Made by a program: the position numbers and the translations under genes. From Ectocarpus siliculosus (Eukaryota; Sar; Phaeophyceae; Ectocarpales; Ectocarpaceae), in contig FN649741.1 of assembly GCA_000310025.1 (NCBI GenBank), positions 3,248,107-3,312,106 on the forward strand: a stretch of 64,000 nucleotides of DNA. Direction: 5' to 3'. This document shows, one piece after another, positions 8,901-63,761 of the stretch (the first letter of the stretch is position 1; each line of letters begins with the position of its first letter). The notes below the pieces were generated by a model. That model ran no database searches. It was not told the DNA's origin and worked only from the letters and a program-made list of their open reading frames with translations.

Positions 8901-11225
8901 GCGCGAGTGGAGGGACAAGTGCACGTGGGATTGCAAGTGAGTTGGAGTTGTCTGTGTTTTTTTTTTGCCTTTGTGGCGGAGGGCCGACGAACCACAAACG
9001 AAGGCTGTTTTGGCTTGGAGGGTTTGGGTCCGAGACCGCACCTGGTGGGTAGGGCTGTTGTCGGATGGGCCACATTGTACATCAAGCACCTCGAAACAAG
9101 AGCTGGGTGGATTGGACCCCCATCTCCGCGCCGGTTGCCAGCCCCTTGGTCGTGCTCGTCCTCTGTCTACACCGCTCTGTTTCTCCCCGTCCCCCCACGT
9201 TGCGCATCCCTCTCGCAACCAGCTGGAGCACCCTGTGCGTTTCGCGCTGGAGACTCGGGCCTGAGCAGCGCCACGCGGAGGTTTGGCGCGTCCCCGACGA
9301 CGCCGACGGCAAGGGCAAGGGCAAGGGCGTGGCGAGGTCGGCCGTGTCTCCTCCGGCGCCCCCGCCGACCTGGCAGTCGATCTACGGCCGCCTCCACGGG
9401 GACGTGCACGCGCCGAGTGGGACCTTCTGCCCCTCCCACATGGTCATCGGCAGAAGCGTTCAAGAGGTATGTATGTGGAACGTTTTTTTTTCGGTGGGAC
9501 TGGAAAGAAAGGGGGAACGGAAGTGGGGGGATAGGGGTGAGAATCGCGTAAAGACGCTATCTGTTGCCGTGCTCGAGCCCAAGAGCTGTTTTTAACTCTC
9601 GCACATACTTAGAATTTTTCCGCATGGTCCTCTTCCCCTTTTGTTTTTGGCAGGTCCTTCCCCTTTGCTACTTGCATCGTGCTTGGAAGGGTGGACCTTT
9701 CCATGCGTTGTTGTTTTGCCAGGCGGAACCGAATGTATGCAGGTCCGGCGGCAAAGACCGCGTGTCGGGGCCGTTGGCTCTGCACGCAGCCATGATGACC
9801 TCAGTCTGAATTTCCTGCCTATGGTATATGTATCTGTCTGTCCAGGGAGTCGCGGTCTGGATCGCTCTTACCCGCCGGAGTAACGGTATGACGGGCCGCT
9901 CCGTCATGACGCAAGGGTCAACCGGGTTGAGGACGACTGAGGTAGGTGCACACAAGAGAACGGTGTTCTGTTTTGGTGTACTCTTTGCGACACCTTGGTG
10001 ACGTGAAGTTAACCTCCTGTCACGTTGTGTTTGATTGGTCAAGCACCCTCGAGGTAGTTACACAGTGCTTATGACTGTCTCTGGAAGTGAAAGTACCAGA
10101 ACATGAATTTGAATCATTCGCAGCGGCCATCCGTATGCAAGGAAGTAGGCACAAGATGCCGAACACCCTTAGTATGATGCAGGGCACCCTCCATGCGATT
10201 CGCCGAATACCTCACGGCGCTTCGCACTTGGTCATGTCAGAGCCTGGTCCGGTGAGAACCCGGCGTGCTCCGTCCCGGCTTTGTAGGGATGCGAGGTCAA
10301 TGGTCTAACGACTACGGCATGCACGACTACGAGTACAACCCCGCTCGTGTCATGAAAGAAGCGTTGACGGTGTATTTCACCGCGCTCTTCCGTGCGACGC
10401 TCTCTGCGACTCGATACGTGCCGGCCCGACTTTGGACCAGCTCCCCCGCCCTCCCTCCCTTTTCACGAGCTTCCGCACCCGCGTGCACCTCATTAACCTT
10501 CTGCGGCACCCGTGTCTTCCTTGTCCTAAAACTGTCCCGGGAGACAGGTGATCGAGCTGAGGGCCGTGGTCCAGCGAGTGGAAGAAGGACCCGCGGTCCG
10601 CGTCCACCCCCACGCCTTCAAGGTCAGGCGAGTCAGCGGCCTGCGCGCCCTCCTCAACGATCACAGCGGCGGCGGCGGCGGCGGCTCCAGGAGCTCTGGC
10701 GCCGCCATCGTGACGACGACGACCGGATTTTTCCCGCCGGTTTCCCAGGGCGAAGACCGCTTCTCGCCGAAGTTCACTATCAACAGGGGAGCCGCGGAGA
10801 GCAGCAGCAGCAGCAGCAGCGCGGCGGGCTTGCTGATGAACGGCGGCGGCGGCGGCAGAGGAGCAGGAGCTGGAGTGAGGTCTTCTTGGTCGGGGACGGC
10901 AGCGGCAACAGCTTCGCCGGCGGCGGAGGCGACCCCACCGCTGGCACTCTACGAGTACGCGGCCGTGGACTTCTTCATCGAGGCCGCCGGCTGCCCCACG
11001 GAGGCGGATTTCCTGAGGCTGGAGGCGTGCGTCGACGTGGCGGTCTCGGGCGCCACCGCGTCGGCGGCCGGGGCGACGCCGGTCGTTGGGAGCGTCTGTG
11101 TGCCCCTCCTGTCCGTGGGGTTGACAGAGAGAAACCGCCCGCGACCGGCGGCGGCGGCGGCGGCGGCGGCGGGGCTCCGCGCCATGGGCGTAGGAATCGG
11201 CCAGCCGATGAAGCGCTGGTTCTGA
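5922..11225 (+). CDS. bHLH-like plus F-box-like protein
   Basis: Five exons are proposed: 5922-6476, 7166-7267, 8437-8936, 9223-9466 and 10548-11225 (stop). They total 693 codons with consistent phase. Residues 1-185 are acidic, then Ala/Pro/Gln-rich. Exon 2 encodes a basic helix, SRKRDRAKLLRQQMNDGLDNLHE, reminiscent of the basic region and helix 1 of bHLH proteins. Exon 3 begins with a loop and a helix RRAAVVACSAGLVRDLI followed by LRKDKASLSARF, like helix 2 with a leucine-rich extension, then a Q run. It ends with an F-box-like stretch (FGQLLSLSVFGFLGPQSLEEA, then SREWRD) completed by WSTLCVSRW in exon 4. Exon 5 is Gly/Ser/Ala-rich. If both domains are real the protein could link DNA binding to SCF-type ubiquitination. 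The exon 1 donor is uncertain: a GC donor at 6477 keeps phase, and GT sites farther on also exist. Both domain calls are by eye. Confidence 0.6.
10020..10336 (+). mobile_element. Copy 1 of a repeated non-autonomous element (5'-truncated)
   Basis: About 317 bases match the 3' two-thirds of the element at 17041-17700 in the same orientation. They include the shared block around GCCGAACACCCTTAG and the terminal block ending in GACTACGAGTACA. The copy lacks the poly-T and 66-base-repeat portion. It lies in intron 4 of the bHLH/F-box gene, about 210 bases before exon 5. No clear target-site duplication is seen. Confidence 0.8.
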
Positions 11226-16224: not shown

Positions 16225-19200
16225 AGGACACCTGCCCGGTTTGCACGCACTCTGACTATACCTACGGAAGCATCTACAGGATACCTCTGTAGATCTTGTT
16301 CGCGGAACTTTTCTCCAGGAACCGCAAGCAACACCACGAGCAGGAAGCAACATGTTGCAAACCGGAGACTGTGAACGAACCCGTCCACGGATTGAGCTGC
16401 CTTTGAAGAGTGGATTCTGACGGGTGGGACGGGTATCCGCTCACCGTTTCAATCCGTGCAAAGGTTCGGGCAACAACCTCAAACATATGGAACCGCTAGC
16501 GATATGAATAGTACTACTTTTGTCGCCCGTGCATGCGTGACCCCCCCAGGCGCACCGCGCAGCAGGCGAGGAGCGGCGACGGCGGCTGGCGATATCCCTA
16601 GCCACTCTCTCCAAGAAGCCCGAGAAGCGGGCGAACGTGGTGGCGAACGGAGGGGTGGCCGCGCTCGCCAAGCTATCCAGGAGCGAGGAGTCCCGAACGC
16701 GAAGTTCTTGCGCCGAGGTGATTTTTTTTTCGGTTTCTTGGAGCTGTGGTCTAGACGAGATGGCGAATGCCAACAGGGCGTATCAAACCTAGCTGTTCCG
16801 CCCCCATCCCCTCGAAACAACAGCATGAGGAAACCCTTAAAACACACTTTGCTCCCTGCCAACGACGACACGTCACCGCCAGGGCGACAGATAATCCCAT
16901 CTGGTTACTTCGTGGTGCCCGAAAATACCACCACCCCAGGGCTTCGCCTGTGAGCTCTCTCCATTCTTCCCTGTGCCATTTCCGCTTTGATTCGGGATTT
17001 GAGCGTCACCCAGTCTTTCGTCCCCCCCCCCATCACTCGCCTGTCCCCGGTGTTTGCCATCGGGGTTGGGTTTTCGTCGCTTGGCAACGACGTTGTAAAC
17101 CAAGCCGCCCCCCCCGGTGTTTGCCATCGGGGTTTGGGTTTTCGTCGCTTGGCAACGACGTTGTAAAACAAGCCCCCCACTCGGTGTTTGCCATCGGGAT
17201 TGGGTTTTCGTCGCTTGGCAACGACGTTGTAAAACAGGCCAATTCACTTCGTGAACTCGGCAACCAGGTTACCGTTTTTTTTTTTTTACCTCGTTTTTTT
17301 TTTTGGCGGTAACCATAATGGTGGTCGAGTAGATCATGTTGTGCGGGGTCGAGAAACCTCACTCCGCGCAACGGGGGATGATCGCACCACGTTGTGTTAA
17401 AATGGTCAAGCTTCCTCGAGGCAGTTACACAGTGCGTACAACTGTCTCTGGAAGTGAAAGCACCAAATAAATTAAGTCATACGTAGCTGTCATCCGTACG
17501 CAAGGAAGTAAGCACAAGATGCCGAACACCCTTAGCAGGATGCAGCTCACCCTTCATGCGACTCGCCAAATACCTCACGGCGCTTCGCGCTTGGTGATGT
17601 GAGAACCTGGTCCGGTGAGAACCCGGCGTGCTCCGTCCCGGCTTTGTAGGGATGCGAGGTCAATGGTCAAACGACTACGGCATGCACGACTATGAGTACA
17701 CCCCCCCCCCATCACTCGCAGGTTTTCAACAACCTTGCGACGGAGAGGTCCCTGAGGCAGCGCATGATCGAGGAAGGCGCAGCGCCGGCCATCATCGCCC
17801 TTGCCGCCTCCTCCCACAACCGCCACCTGAGGAGCCAGTGCGTGGAGGCCCTGTGCAAGCTCGCCGTGGTGCCGGGCAGCGAGGCTCAGATCATCGCTGA
17901 GGTGAGAGCGCGGAACGGGATGTATACGAGGACGGGACACAGACGCCGGATGGAACCCGAGGCCTACATGGAAGAAAACGCGGGGCCTGAGCAGTAGAAG
18001 TACTGTGTCGGGAACTCTGTTTCTTAGATCTCGAGAAACGTGTTCACAACCCCGCGCACGGCTTGGGGCGTGTGAGATAGACTTCTTGCTCGTGTGGCGA
18101 TCCTCCCTTAACGTGAGGCCATGGGCCCTGAAATGAGTTGGAAGGCATGAGTACGCGCGCGTTTCTCAACAATAATTCGCATATTATAGTAGGTCCGTGT
18201 CCAGAATCGGGTTCTGTGCCAACGAGTTTCGTTCTGCCCTTCAGACGCTCGCATCACAAGACGCTTCTCAACCCCCCCATGCTCGCGTTTTTGTGTGCGC
18301 GGTGGAAGTGCGAGTGAATGAATGGTTGTCAAATCGATTCCTCCAATGCCCATCTTGCCATACGTGCCGCACCGTGCAGGGAGGCGTGTCGTGCATTCTG
18401 GCGGTACAGCGGGCGGTGCCGTCGCTAGGAGGGGTAAGTCCCCTCTTGATCTCTACCTGGGACATTTCCGGGAGACAGATACCTCACCGCACCGTTCTTT
18501 GCTGCTGGATGTTGTAGAACACACACTTTTAGCCTGTGTCGGGGCTGAAATCCAGAAAACGGCATGCAGGTGGTGCGGGCTCTCGTGCATAGAGAACCAC
18601 CACGCATTGGCAAATGCGGAGACGTGCGATGTACCCCGGATCTGCACAGCACGGGATGCCTCGCATCCTTCGTGTGTACCTTGCCGTGGTACTGCAGTTC
18701 ATAGAAAATTCTCACTCGTGTAGGAGCAGACTTCAAGAAGGCCCTCTCCGGCCGCACGGAGATCCTATGACGTCATTCGCTTCGATAGCATCATCGCCTT
18801 GGTACCGAAACCAATGCTCGCCTCCGGTCATGCATCCTCTCTGCCGTACCCCTGCGTCTTGTGGTAAATTGTTGAAATGTTTCCCCACGTGCAACAACAG
18901 GTNNNNNNNNNNNNNNNNNNNNNNNNNNNNNNNNNNNNNNNNNNNNNNNNNNNNNNNNNNNNNNNNNNNNNNNNNNNNNNNNNNNNNNNNNNNNNNNNNN
19001 NNGGGGGGGGGGGGGGGGGGGAAGGGGGGGGGGGGGGGGGGGGGGGCGCACCGAGGTGCACGGTGACGCTCTGCTCGCTCGTACATGCTCTGCTTCGCAG
19101 ATGCAGATGTTCGTGGCAAGGCCAAACCACCAGCCTTTTGCAACTGGCGTTCCCTTGAGGGTCTTCTCCGATACATTCTGATTGTTTGTCGGCCCCACGG

Positions 19201-22200
19201 AAGAGAAGCGGGGGAGAGAAAGTGTGACCGAACCGAAGGCGTGAGCACAGATGGGCATTTGATTGCGCCGTCACGTTGTCCGGTTCGAGGTTCTAATAGA
19301 CCGGAGACGTGGACATGACAGCTCTCTGGTGTCCCACGTTAGCAAGCGCTTTAGTTTCTGTACAAAATTGCTTTTATCTGCGCTCCACGTCTGGAATCAC
19401 TGGAGCCGCCGCGTCAGGCGTCGAGCACTTGAACGTGCATGTCTGCATCGTCGCGGCCCTCACGCTCGAATCGACTGTGCCTGTCTAAACAGTTGGCTGG
19501 AACGGTAGAGGAAGACGAGTCGTTAGAGAGGCTCCTAATACAGCTCCTGTGCAACCTATCGGGCTTCAAGAACAACCAACTAAAGCTAGGTGAGTGGGTG
19601 TATGGAAGACTGAATCGTCCACATGATCGCCAGAAGGGTATGGAATCCACAGGGATGGCCCTCCCTCTCATTCTGTTTTCGTCTTTCCCCCTGTCTCCAC
19701 CCCAGGCGCTCGAGAACTCCCGGTTATCCGGCTGCTAGTTTAGTTCGGGACATTATCCTATTCTGCAGGCATCCAGGGAACCCGTTGGTTCGGTTGTCAT
19801 CATGTACAGTAGCGCTGCCATGTTCTTCAGAACGAACATGGGACACACGAAAGAACCCGACTGTGGCTTCAGCACAGAACGCCACCGTCCCAACCGTCAC
19901 CTCAAGCCCTAGCGTTCGAAGCCGACCCTAGCACAAGGAGCCTAGGGGACATCGCTTTCTAGCTCGGCGAACGTCGCAGGACGCTTTCTCCTGGGTCTTT
20001 CGACTCGAACCGCTGCTGATGCGGAAGAGGGTGTCGCTTGTGCGGCATACAGGCGGTACCTCTAAGCCCCATCCTTCGTCATGGGTACCACCTAAAACTG
20101 TGTCGGTTCTGGGTTGAAAAATAAAACCACCGTGCAAGAAAGGACGCCGCATGTTACCTGCGCTCAAAACGGGGCCATTGTTTTACCAAGTGTGCGCATC
20201 AGCCAAGTCGCCGTTTTTTCGTCTCCTTCGAATGATTTCTCAAACACTTGCTGCGACACGCGATAAACCTGCACGCCGCCGCCGCCGCGGTCGCTGAAGT
20301 GGAGGAGGGCGCCATCCGGATCATCTCCCGCGCGGCCGAGAGGACCGCTTCGGTGGACGTGGTCCGCCTCTGCGCCAGCACCCTCTGCAACTTCGCCGGG
20401 GAAGGGAGGGCCAGGCCCAAGATGTCAGACAGCCGGACGGCACAGGTGTGTGTTGGGCGGCGGCGATGACTGGAGGCCGCACGACGAAAGAAAGGGGCGT
20501 GCTTGCCTGAAGACAAAAGTGCGATGGTAGTAGCGACGACGACGACGATGATGATGACGATGATGATTTCAGCCACATTGATCGGGCGTAGCGGAAGGCA
20601 AAGACGAGAGCGGTATCGTTGCTCATCTCGCCTCTGGTCAAGCACCTTGTATCCGTGTGTGCGCTAGCTCTGAGTATGGCCCACGTCCTACCAGTACCAA
20701 CGGGTGAGACCCACATCCAGCGATCAGCAAGAGCAATAGTTCGTGGAAATTCAATAGATCCCGCGGGAAACCAGTTGGTGTCAGCTTGCGGAGTTAGACT
20801 TTTGTAGAACCATAGACAGCAGTAGAAACAATCTTGGCCAACATTAAATGCTTAGTGGGAGATCAAAAAGCGAACTTGGGTTTCTGGCGGGGATACTTCG
20901 AAACATACACACGAGTGCCCCGCGCCCAGCAGTAGCTGTAGTCTCAAGGCGAGAGGTGCGTCACTGCCGTTGCATATTTCCGTCGAAAGGCGCTGTTGAA
21001 CCTGACGAAGCACGAAGACATCGGCATCCGGCGAGAGGTGGCGCACACGATAGCGAGGCTGGCGGCCGACGCGAGCTGCAGAGAGAAAATCCTGCAGTAC
21101 GGCATCATCCCGATCCTCGTGACCATGAGCACCGCACCCGACCTGGATACCACCACAGGCCGGTGAGGGAGAGGGTGTACTCATAGTCGTGCATGCCGTA
21201 GTCGTTTGACCATTGACCTCGCATCCCTACAAAGCCGGGACGGAGCACGCCGGGTTCTCACCGGACCAGGCTCTCACATCACCAAGCGCGAAGCGCCGTG
21301 AGGTATTTGGCGAGTCGCATGAAGGGTGAGCTGCATCCTGCTAAGGGTGTTCGAGGGGGGGGCTGTACCGTGAGAGGGAAGAGCAACGCGTCACGTCGGA
21401 GCTTTTCATTTCGTACATATATAGGATACCCATACACGAGTACACACCTGAACTATCCCCGTCGCATCACACATAAGGGCTATCGTTTCGTAACGGGAAT
21501 AGTAAAGCGGTTCGCCGGGTGCGTACAGCGCGGAATATATCTTCGGTAGTTCCTTCACGGGCACCCCTCCCTCGCTATAGACGTACCCACCTCTCCTGCC
21601 AAAGCGTTTGCACAAACGCCACATACATACCATTGTTTAGATCTCCGAACGCCGAAACGCAAGTTTAACCATGCACTGGTACTGCCCCATTTGCCGCCGA
21701 GACAGATGCATCGCGCTGGCTTTTCGGGTGCTCTCGTCGGATCGAAAATTCGCCGAGATAATCGTCGACGGCGGAGCGGTGGATGCCCTCATCTCCCTCA
21801 CGAGGTCCACTGATTCCCCCTGCCGCCTAAGGTGGGGTATCGACAAGAGGGGCATCGACGGCAATAGGTCGCAGGGGTACTGACCATCTCAATGCACGCA
21901 TGTACGGTGCGCGAATTGTTTTCCGCTATCCAGGACCTCCCGAACAAACCCTTAGCCTTCTTCTCGATCCCACATCCCATTCTCAAGATCGAATAACTAG
22001 CCGCCTACCTAGGCAATCAATGTTCTCCGATCGGCGGCGCACTAACATACGCCACCAATTCCTGCCCCTCTCGCCCCCCCCCCCCCCTCCCCGTCGTGGC
22101 ACTCCTCTTCTCCCTCCTTCTTGGGTATCGTCCCTGTGAACGCTGCCAAACCTTCCCCCTAAAACGACGACCCTTCACCAAACAACCCCACCGAAAAACT

Positions 22201-51360: not shown

Positions 51361-52314
51361 GACAAACCACAAAAAAGGAAGGACGCTTTCGAAACGACAC
51401 CACTACAAGCAAACACGACAGCTATCCGGAGAGACTATACCACGAATCTCCACACCAAGTCGACTTCCGCAACACTACTCCTGAAATCTGTCGAATACTG
51501 GGAGCCGAAACTCGCAACCCAAAATCCTCCCGATGTCACCGGCGCAAACCAAAACGCCTATTCATTCGTAGCCCAACAGAAAAACGGAGTACCATGTACT
51601 ACAACAACACACATTCCTCGACACACGCGTTCCACGCCAATGACTCCGTCCAGTTTTTCGTGTGTGTGGATTGTCTCACGAATGCGGCAATAGCAGTGCT
51701 GCTCTCATTCACCAACAACCGTTCCGTGCGCGTGAATGGACATCCAGAGTTTTGCGCTGAGAGGGATGACTAATGAACTCTGGCTCCTTGTTCGGCGACC
51801 GGTCAGCCCGTTGCACGCCTCTTTCGGCGTTCATTTTTTACGGCCCCCGTTATTTGTTGATCGCCGTCGGTGTGGCAGTAGCACCACCACCAGCAGAAGC
51901 AGCAGCGGCAGCAGCGGCAGCAACACCCGCCCGGACTTTGTCGAGGTCGAAGGACACCGGGATATTGCCGCAACACAAGAGAATGTACCTGGTTGCATGA
52001 GAAGATGGGGATTTCGAGTTCCATATACAGGGGTAGCGAGGTATGTGTTCATGCGGTCAACTAAGCGCACACCGGAATTCAACTTGTTTCGAAGCCGTCA
52101 ATGCCCCGTAGTAGTACGACTTGTCGAAGTTTGCTGCATGCGTTTGGCTTGAAGAAACCCATCGAGATTGGCAACAAATGACCCGCGGGTTGAAATTTAT
52201 CCGTCATCCAGAAGGTCAGCCCTCAACTACCGCTCGCATTAAATATGAAACGAGCACCTAGGGACGCCAGAGGTGACACTCCTTTCTGTCCCGCTCTCTC
52301 CCCCCCCCCCCCCC

Positions 52315-60826: not shown

Positions 60827-63761
60827 ATGGGCAAGAAAGGTGTGTCATCGCGTGGCGCTTGTTTTGCTCTGCGTCCTTTCTTGACAAAGTCGCGCTCCTG
60901 CTGTGACAACGGCTTTCTTTCCCAAAGAGAGAATGCTGCGCGAGACACCCTGCTGTTTCTTTCTGATGTGTGAAGGGCACACTTGCATCGCCGCCAACAA
61001 CGCTTGGCTTGACCACGCCCTGGTGCATCCCCTCTCTTTTGCGGTCCCCCTTATAACAGGCAACAAGGGCAGGAAGTCTCCAAGCAGCAGGGAGGAGTTC
61101 GGAGATGATGTCATCGATGACGCCATGTCCACCACGAGCGTAGACACGTACGGGAGTGCGCTCGACTACCCCGAGACATACAACGGCGGCGGCGGCGGGG
61201 CGTGGGACGCAGCTGGGGGAGAAGAGGGTGTCAACAGCAAGGCGGTGGACGACTTCAAGGACGGTGTTGAGCAGCTGACGGAAAAGAGGTGGGACTACAC
61301 TGCAGCAGTATTGCCGTACATCTATCTGCATTGATCGGCGTATGATGCACTGCAACAGGGGGTCTGGGAAACTCCAGGCAGCAGGAATAGAGGGTGGCTC
61401 CGCGGTACCGATGGGAAGGGGGGAGAGAGAGAGGGAGAAGCCACCGGCTAGGCTAGCTGCTGATCCTTCCTTCCCCCTGAGTAACTTGTGCGCATGGGGT
61501 AGGGCTGCTTCTGGGGAGAACCCGTTGTCCACGACTCTGTCGCGCTGCCGAAATAGAGCCACCTATTGATGACGTGCTATGACGTACTTTCACTCTTCAT
61601 TTACTCCTCACGACGAGAAACCTAAGTATGTAGTTGCTTGGTCCGGACGCTCCATTCGCAACACAACACACGCGGTTTGTGGACTTACGAATCGGTCACG
61701 CATTTTATCCTCAACTCCAATCTCTATGGGTTCACAAGATCAGGAGTTTTCTTTGATTCTGCATGTAGGTACAATGTGGAGGTTCGATAGCACAATACAC
61801 CGGCTAACATGTTGCACAGCCACTTGTTGGTTGTGCCTTAGTTGAAGAGGGATATCTATCAGCTTCGGTTGTATTGCGTTCATCTACACGTGAATGTGTA
61901 CCAAGCGCTCTCGGCGACAACAAAGGAAAATCGAGTGCTATTTTTCTTCTGCTCTTGAATCTGGAATTTGTGCTATATCGTGGATCGTGGACCCCCCGCA
62001 CGATTTGATCACATCATCGTACCACCCGAGCGCACACAGCTGACATAGTGGACTTCCCGGGGCCCTCGCGTTTTCAGGCCAAGCACCGGACGCGCCACCA
62101 ATTTTGCAATGACTTGGTAGGAGAAGCATTGAAGAACTTGACCATACATGTTCGATATGTTTTTACAAGTGTATTTCGTTGCTCGCCCTCGGCGTGGTTT
62201 GTTCACGGCAGGAAAATAATCTTCCCGCCGTCGTGGCTGGCACCAACACGTGTTCGTGGGTGTCTTTTTATTATGCACCTGAGCCTCTCCTATTTTGCTA
62301 CTGACTGACTTGACCGACACCTTTTTGCCTGCTTGCCCCTCTTGCCGACCGAATGATCGACCGCCTGCCCAGGGCGTCCACGCGCGAGGCCGGCTTGAGG
62401 GCGGTCATCAAGTTCATGCTTCACTCTCCGGACCTCGAGCCCGTGCTGGCCATGCGGGAGACGGTGCTCTCGGCCCTGATCGGCGTCGCTCGTGGGAAGG
62501 GCACGGAGTCGCAGGTGGGGGGGGGGAGGGGGGGTACTCATAGTCGTGCATGCCGTAGTCGTTATACCATTGACCTCGCATCCCTACAAAGCCGGGACGG
62601 AGCACGCCGGGTTCTGACCGGACCAGGCTCTCACATCACCAAGCACGAAGCGCCGTGAGGTATTCGGCGAGTCGCATGAAGGGTGCGCTGAATCCTGCTA
62701 AGGGTGTTGGGCATCTTGTGCTTACTTCCTTGCGTATGGATGACAGCTGAGTATGACTTAATGTATTTTCTGTGCTTTCCCTTCCAGAGACAACTGTAAG
62801 CACTGCTGTGTACCTGCCTCGAAGATACTTGACCATTTTAACAAAACGTGGTGCGATCATCCCCTTTGCGCAGAGTGAGGGTTCTCGACCCCGCACAACA
62901 TATTCTACTAGACCACCGTTCATGGTTACCGCAAAAAAAAAAAAAGGCAAAAAAAAAAAAAAGCGGTAACCTGGTTGCCGAGCTCACGAAGTGAATCGGC
63001 TTGTTTTACAACATCGCTGCCAAGCGACGAAAACCCAACCCCGATGGCAAACATCGAAGAGGGGGGAGTCGCAGGTGGGGGGTGTTTTTGGAGGGGTTTT
63101 TTGAGGGGGGTTACGGCCGCGGCAGCTCCGATCTGCTGGGCGTTTTGTTTTGATCTCGCTCGGAAGTGAAGGATGTGTAGGTATGTGCCGCCTTACGCCT
63201 ATTACCATCGAGTCTCAATTTAGATGGATGTACGTGGAGAGCTCATGCGTGCTTTTCTACCGGCTGCATTTGTCCCAGATGGGCTATTGCGTAGCGCAGG
63301 TCGTTTGTGTTGTATAATAGTCCAAACGAGAATGGAAGTCCCTGTGCAGGTCGGGACGGGGTGGGGTTCGAATATATGACAGGTATGTTTCCAGGGAAAG
63401 GTACCGAAAGGGTCCCAAGTTCTCGTGTTACGTATCATAGCCCAACAGACGTGCACATGCGGGAGAGCTCTTCACACTCACAAGAAAAAAAAACACACAC
63501 ACACGCGAAACATATGCCAGGGGGCTCACGCGCTGCGAGCGCTGTCGGTGCTGTGCGTGTGCATCGGGCCGGAGGAGGAGGAGGCGTTTCGGTCCCTGCG
63601 GCGGCCGCTGCGGAGCCTCATCACCCGCAGCCGCCATGAAGGGGTGAGGGTCGGGGCGGTGCGCACCCTTGCGCTTGCATGCTTCATCTGCTCGAGCGAC
63701 GACGACAACACCAGCGAGACCCTAGACCTCTTGGCCGACGTGTTCAGCAGGACGAGCGACG
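60827..63761 (+). CDS. IFRD-family (interferon-related developmental regulator) protein, 5' part
   Basis: Exons 60827-60839, 61060-61288, 62373-62514 and 63521-63761 are in phase, and the gene continues past the window or into its last 240 bases. The product starts MGKKGNKGRKSPSSREE, followed by an acidic/Ser segment with AMSTTSVDTYGS, like the N-terminus of IFRD proteins. Helical repeats follow: VEQLTEKRASTREAGLRAV, EPVLAMRETVLSALIGVARG, then the conserved block ALRALSVLCVCIGPEEEEAF and GVRVGAVRTLALACFICSS. IFRD proteins are HEAT-like, and animal members act as transcriptional co-regulators and in ribosome recovery. A tiny 13-base coding first exon is inferred from ATG, donor and phase. The exon after 63761 is unclear: a block at about 63925-64000 (ELDDSVLLLKYKEDTQ) looks coding but is not in phase with this donor. 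Confidence 0.8.
62505..63082 (-). mobile_element. Copy 4 of the repeated element (inverted), with ~18-base target-site duplication
   Basis: The element spans about 62523-63064, inverted relative to copy 2. It carries TACTCATAGTCGTGCATG at one end and GATGGCAAACATC at the other, with two A-runs split by GGC in the middle. GGAGTCGCAGGTGGGGGG occurs at 62505-62522 and 63065-63082. The left copy is the end of IFRD exon 3 and its donor (CAG|GTGGGG), so the insertion duplicated the exon-intron junction. Confidence 0.85.

Follow-up and report, generated by a model that had tools for sequence, protein, structure and literature searches.

The four copies of a short retroposon in the window

The window, by which we mean the whole 64-kb stretch of DNA analysed here, contains a first gene with an armadillo repeat, a second gene with an IFRD domain and four copies of a short element. 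The features are listed below. The exon edges are predicted from open frames, Pfam matches and a coding model and not from transcripts, and the identities of the copies refer to a genomic copy at locus L004.

10021..10336, + strand: copy 1, 5'-truncated, 90% over 317 bp
17022..17040, + strand: 5' target duplication of copy 2, C10ATCACTCGC, 19 bp
17045..17699, + strand: copy 2, full length, 98%
17648..17699, + strand: 3'-terminal ~52 bp of copy 2, common to two LINE families (80% with X1, 85% with X2)
17701..17719, + strand: 3' target duplication of copy 2, C10ATCACTCGC, abutting the acceptor AG
17722..17898, + strand: exon downstream of copy 2, weak ARMC5 match (19.3 bits, under the curated cutoff)
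21177..21353, - strand: copy 3, short, 5'-truncated, 178 bp aligned
62505..62522, + strand: target duplication of copy 4, GGAGTCGCAGGTGGGGGG, 18 bp, across the exon/GT donor (exon end 62514)
62534..63066, - strand: copy 4, 91%, with fewer 66-bp units
63065..63082, + strand: second duplicate of copy 4, GGAGTCGCAGGTGGGGGG

An earlier, sequence-only reading of this DNA had recognised a repeated mobile element, four copies of which carry a common end block. Both points are confirmed: the block is found three times exactly and once with a single mismatch in the window, where shuffled sequences lead one to expect 0.01 occurrences. The element runs in + sense at 17045 and in - sense at 62534, and the block GTACTCATAG corresponds to the complementary strand of its 3' end. 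Read in the sense of the element, copy 2 begins with about three units of 66-67 bp, followed by a T-rich stretch and by the terminus ...GCATGCACGACTATGAGTAC. By eye, one can notice in this copy an inverted repeat, GGTTACCG...CGGTAACC, flanking two T-tracts (window 17265-17330); internal T-tracts such as those of this element would be expected to act as a Pol III stop. Copy 3 is 100% identical to another genomic copy.

The duplications of copies 2 and 4 do lie on splice sites, as had been claimed, the first (19 bp) directly before an acceptor AG and the second (18 bp) across a donor. In the sense of the element, the duplication of copy 4 consists of C6 and twelve further bases. Copy 3 had been placed just after a donor and is indeed found 14 bases past that of an armadillo exon, with an unclear duplication (7 shared bases plus filler, hence no clean repeat). 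Copy 1 is not splice-adjacent, because ~210 bp separate it from the next acceptor, that of an exon starting near 10548. Concerning the names given to the two genes, the armadillo repeat is found by Pfam in a later exon of the stretch to which the exon downstream of copy 2 belongs, and the IFRD domain, again by Pfam, in an exon downstream of the donor exon of copy 4. The names do not extend to the exons which touch the insertions: the one after copy 2 has only its weak ARMC5 match and the donor exon at copy 4 has no Pfam match.

The short element in the genome

We searched the genome (189 Mb, 492 contigs) with copy 2 and obtained 53 matches from the best 40 of 2,271 candidates, the top 40 matches being near full length with 97-100% identity. 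There are 1,673 exact occurrences of its 21-base 3' end, 887 in forward and 786 in reverse orientation; the reversed control has none in the genome, nor has the control followed by NCCCCC. This 3' end is fixed and the 5' truncation is variable, as can be seen in window copies 1 and 3, in a copy of ~48 bp (L107) and in the copies of the LINEs described below. The short element is a non-autonomous, SINE-like retroposon of ~660 bp. No tRNA was found in it and no Rfam family at gathering score; at a relaxed threshold, Rfam returned one match at chance level (E 4.6).

The element also forms head-to-tail arrays with C-tracts at the junctions (L009, L015, L016, L021; contigs C469, C17, C1, C18). In the arrays on these four contigs the downstream copy begins at query position 133, which corresponds to a single 66-bp unit.

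A 3' end common to two LINE families

A second and a third family, X1 and X2, have the same 3' end. Both are LINEs with a reverse transcriptase, and in the alignment the short element is 80-85% identical to their 3' ends over 51-52 bp. The reverse transcriptase of X1 matches Pfam RVT_1 (5.7e-16), and the best-scoring solved chain for X1 is LINE-1 ORF2. Its endonuclease-like region matches Exo_endo_phos_2 at 8.4e-6 with 26.1 bits, just under the curated 27.4. The translation of X1 contains GDFN and DH motifs, which we take to be those of the endonuclease, and a C-terminal cysteine/histidine motif.

The frame of X1 is closed by a TAA six bases before the 3' end of the element (for instance at L048 1591-1599), and that of X2 by a TGA four bases before it in L103, L104 (near 225-238), L106, L107 and L108; the X2 copy L105 has a small deletion at the region of the stop codon. 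Since the LINE stops are located 4-6 bases from the 3' terminus, the common 3' region codes for protein in the LINEs but not in the short element. The fold of the corresponding RNA was no better than that of shuffles for the three single sequences folded, and we claim no structure for it. The LINE copies are truncated in 5' at many positions. Among the best 150 of 572 candidates of the reverse-transcriptase search, identities cluster near 97-99% and near 67-68%, with others between. Going by the description in the relevant passages of PMC12477816, X1 and X2 would belong to the RTE-X clade.

C-tracts at both ends of the insertions

In the genome, 1,390 of the 1,673 short-element 3' ends are followed by NCCCCC and 283 are not. 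We fetched the 30 best-scoring loci of the short element, and a C-run of at least 6 is present in 27 of them; of the remaining three, two reach gaps, and in the third a short duplicated end precedes the C-run. In 20 loci taken in position order, the C-run is of at least 5 in 17, the other three being interrupted C-rich flanks. The LINEs behave in the same way: C5 or more after the first base at 27 of 30 X1 ends (30 of the 40 matches identical over 99 bp), and a C-tract at all six X2 ends fetched. The best-scoring short-element sample and the X1 sample are both biased toward young copies. Assembly gaps often start right after C-tracts (L003, L013, L019, L022, L042, L059, L102 and, in the window, 52300-52314), so that tract lengths and some flanks are uncertain.

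A C-run following a 3' end may belong to the target. It may also be a tail of the element itself, homopolymeric or microsatellite-like, added at largely arbitrary targets; a study on moths deals with microsatellite families that RTE retrotransposons have generated. The two readings differ on the 5' side, which we analysed in the LINEs. From 50 LINE loci, 13 in which the junction falls off the locus edge and 2 with gaps at the junction were removed, leaving 35. In 26 of these 35, a run of C7 or more is found no further than 30 nt upstream of the 5' junction (or at most 5 nt inside), for an expectation of ~0.01 derived from the window's own tract density; in six of the 26 (L033, L037, L042, L051, L060, L073) the tract is located behind the 3' end of another copy. 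Among the nine junctions without C7, two have C6, and seven have no C-run of 5 or more; one of the nine, L064, is probably a misplaced junction. In most cases, then, the run belongs to the target that was duplicated. In the window, too, C10 or C6 belongs to both duplicates of copies 2 and 4. In places, the 3' run exceeds the 5' run (17 versus 9 in L002, 18 versus 5 in L007), and L038 and L039 have long C-runs on the 3' side only. Slippage or a tail may therefore account for part of the longer runs, but as a general explanation the tail is distinctly unlikely given the C-runs on the 5' side. Hence the preference for G/C-tracts suggested by the sequence-only reading holds well, both at the 1,390 3' ends and at the 26 LINE 5' junctions.

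Duplications made of a C-run and a complex flank are clear in L001 (the window copy), L002, L007, L014, L023, L029, L030, L050 and L053; where clear, their length is ~11-20 bp and variable. In L107, the C-tract following the X2 LINE contains the nested ~48 bp copy, with the duplication CCCCCCATCTCACA. When C-runs are collapsed, a duplication of at least 10 bases is present in 7 of 22 short-element copies, versus 1.8% of shuffled pairs, and absent in 15. These 22 were obtained from 30 copies after taking out 4 with gaps and 4 with another copy directly behind them, as an apparent duplication could then be the next copy's own 5' end; without this filter the count is 10 of 26, versus 4.2%. With uncollapsed C-runs, matches of at least 5 are found in 24 of 41 (34% in shuffled pairs) and of at least 7 in 15 of 41 (23%). 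The contrast thus depends on the method and is much weaker if C-runs are not collapsed. The long duplications and the target-primed type of insertion proposed for the window agree with these observations, the 19 and 18 bp duplicates there both including the C-run.

Insertions, C-tracts and exons

It had also been proposed that the element prefers splice junctions, and that this be checked genome-wide on the distance of insertions to splice sites. We ran a check of this kind on a sample of insertions, with predicted exons. The coding model was self-trained on the exons of the window, long open frames being dropped from the training set since many were spurious; it is rough, with 30 segments called in the window versus 10 in the reversed control at the threshold used. 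We started from 79 flanks, 59 from the earlier loci without the window copy and 20 ordered by position on contig C1 (a set which skips one array locus). Removal of 13 for gaps and 13 for transposon sequence left 53, the transposon mask being composed of the short element and X1, without X2 or other families.

Among these 53 insertions, 8 are followed in 3' by a predicted exon at a distance of at most 100 nt, as are 24 of the 457 random positions (p=0.012 for the difference), and 7 of the 8 insertions are in the sense of the gene. A strict and a loose threshold both reduce the excess over random positions (p=0.11 and 0.054) but leave that on the sense strand in place (p=0.009 and 0.006). C-tracts without the element are, however, just as close to exons: 11 of 54 have one within 100 nt (p=0.61 versus the insertions), and on their other side this is so for 1 of 51. 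The result was similar in an earlier run on longer flanks and a smaller number of loci, where a sense exon was present within 100 nt for 5 of 36 insertions (the window copy excluded), for 7 of the 53 empty tracts and for 14 of the 349 random positions. In that run, none of 21 left flanks of short-element copies had an exon within 250 nt.

The association with exons is one-sided (11 of 54 versus 1 of 51), which means that C-tracts have a polarity relative to exons, as would be the case for polypyrimidine tracts and donor-side G-runs. The insertions inherit this polarity. That the element should prefer splice junctions themselves, through splicing factors, co-transcriptional access or reverse splicing, was suggested by the window, where three of four copies are within ~20 bases of a splice site, and by the excess over random positions with its gene-sense bias. 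We nevertheless hold it to be very unlikely, as empty C-tracts are equally exon-near and no exon is predicted within 100 nt of 45 of the 53 insertions. The check on these insertions, which shows no excess over empty C-tracts, does not bear out a preference for splice junctions as such. A modest extra preference may exist, the numbers being small and the exons predicted.

Introners create introns when they insert into exons, according to the passages of PMC9860276 that describe them; the many similar intronic copies and the duplications touching splice sites are what they have in common with the present element. The comparison drawn in the sequence-only reading fails; its remark that the introns appear to pre-date the insertions agrees with what is found at copies 2 and 4. 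The predicted intron extends over ~300 bases beyond the element at copy 2 and over ~450 at copy 4, hence these two introns are older than the insertions, which is the difference from the introners of those passages. As, moreover, 45 of 53 other copies are away from predicted exons and the 3' end is common to LINEs, an element creating introns is extremely improbable here, despite the copies at splice sites whose duplications touch splice signals. A cut-and-paste or rolling-circle DNA transposon, which the high copy number and the tandem repeats at one end might bring to mind, can practically be dismissed, since the 5' truncation is variable with a fixed 3' end, this end is common to elements encoding a reverse transcriptase, and the ends of copy 2 are, by eye, not inverted repeats of each other.

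A proposed target-primed insertion into C/G-tracts

We propose, with a probability of roughly 0.85, that the short element is a non-autonomous retroposon copied by the LINEs X1 and X2, whose 3' end it carries, and inserted by target priming at C/G-tracts. Four observations are brought together in this way: the common 3' ends, the C-tracts at both junctions in most readable copies, the 5' truncation and the association of the tracts with exons. The LINE endonuclease would nick the G strand at the border of a C/G homopolymer tract, and the G-rich 3' end thus formed would prime reverse transcription on an RNA with the terminus GAGUAC(A/G)C... Cleavage of the second strand a few bases past the tract would then yield duplications of ~11-20 bp, made of the C-run plus a flank. 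The enzymes of X1 and X2 would act in trans on the short element.

As C-tracts of this genome are located just upstream of acceptors (in the sense orientation) and, in the form of G-tracts, just after donors, a minority of insertions fall at splice sites. There the duplication restores the C-tract or the donor, as can be read from copies 2 and 4, and splicing would be little changed. One may go one step further and imagine that an endonuclease reading C/G-tracts exploits the splicing grammar of the host, a splice-neutral niche letting thousands of copies enlarge introns. This is a tentative idea which we consider possible but rather doubtful.

Relation to known elements

In the passages of PMC12477816 (published in 2025) that concern them, a family of Ectocarpus sp. 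7, RTEX-N1_Ec32, is described together with two LINEs of RTE-X type, RTEX-1_Ec32 and RTEX-2_Ec32. It is ~600 bp long, has more than 6,000 copies, which makes it the most abundant single family, and its 3' end is conserved with RTEX-1 and RTEX-2, the origin of its 5' region being given there as undetermined. Size, abundance and a 3' end common to two autonomous LINEs all fit the short element, which, by this description, is probably RTEX-N1_Ec32. The main text of PMC12477816 does not contain the word 'homopolymer', and its passages on RTEX-N1 mention neither C-tract targets nor splice sites. Among the titles and abstract openings listed from the open-access literature, none reports an RTE-X element targeting C-tracts.

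LINE/SINE pairs with a common 3' end exist elsewhere, for example the UnaL2 pair of the eel. As in such pairs, the non-autonomous element bears the 3' recognition end of the LINE; it differs from them in that no tRNA or Rfam origin was found and that the common region is protein-coding in the LINEs.

Most target-specific LINEs belong to the early-branched, Tx1 and R1 groups, with (TG)n and RNA genes among their targets, according to the part of PMC4640811 which lists them. Togen, HERO, Tx1, R1 and others, whose targets are microsatellites and multicopy genes, resemble the present LINEs in that repetitive DNA guides the insertion. A C-homopolymer target in a LINE of RTE-X type is absent from that part, and the preference seen here is strong, not absolute. 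If it holds biochemically, a specificity for homopolymer tracts would be new to a LINE group outside the target-specific ones listed there, and it would suggest in what way transposon-rich introns stay spliceable. For what is apparently the most abundant retroposon of a brown-algal genome, C-tract targeting would provide a simple and testable landing rule, and it accounts for the apparent preference for splice sites without any mechanism linked to splicing.

Abundance of C-runs in the genome

Runs of C9 or more are very numerous in the whole genome: counting both strands, there are 38,180 of them, for ~2,700 expected from the base composition of the window. We considered whether the family might have seeded these tracts itself. 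A strong effect of this kind was rejected, as 1,769 of the 38,180 runs come after GAGTAC plus one non-C base. This means that the C-runs of the genome mostly do not originate from this retroposon family.
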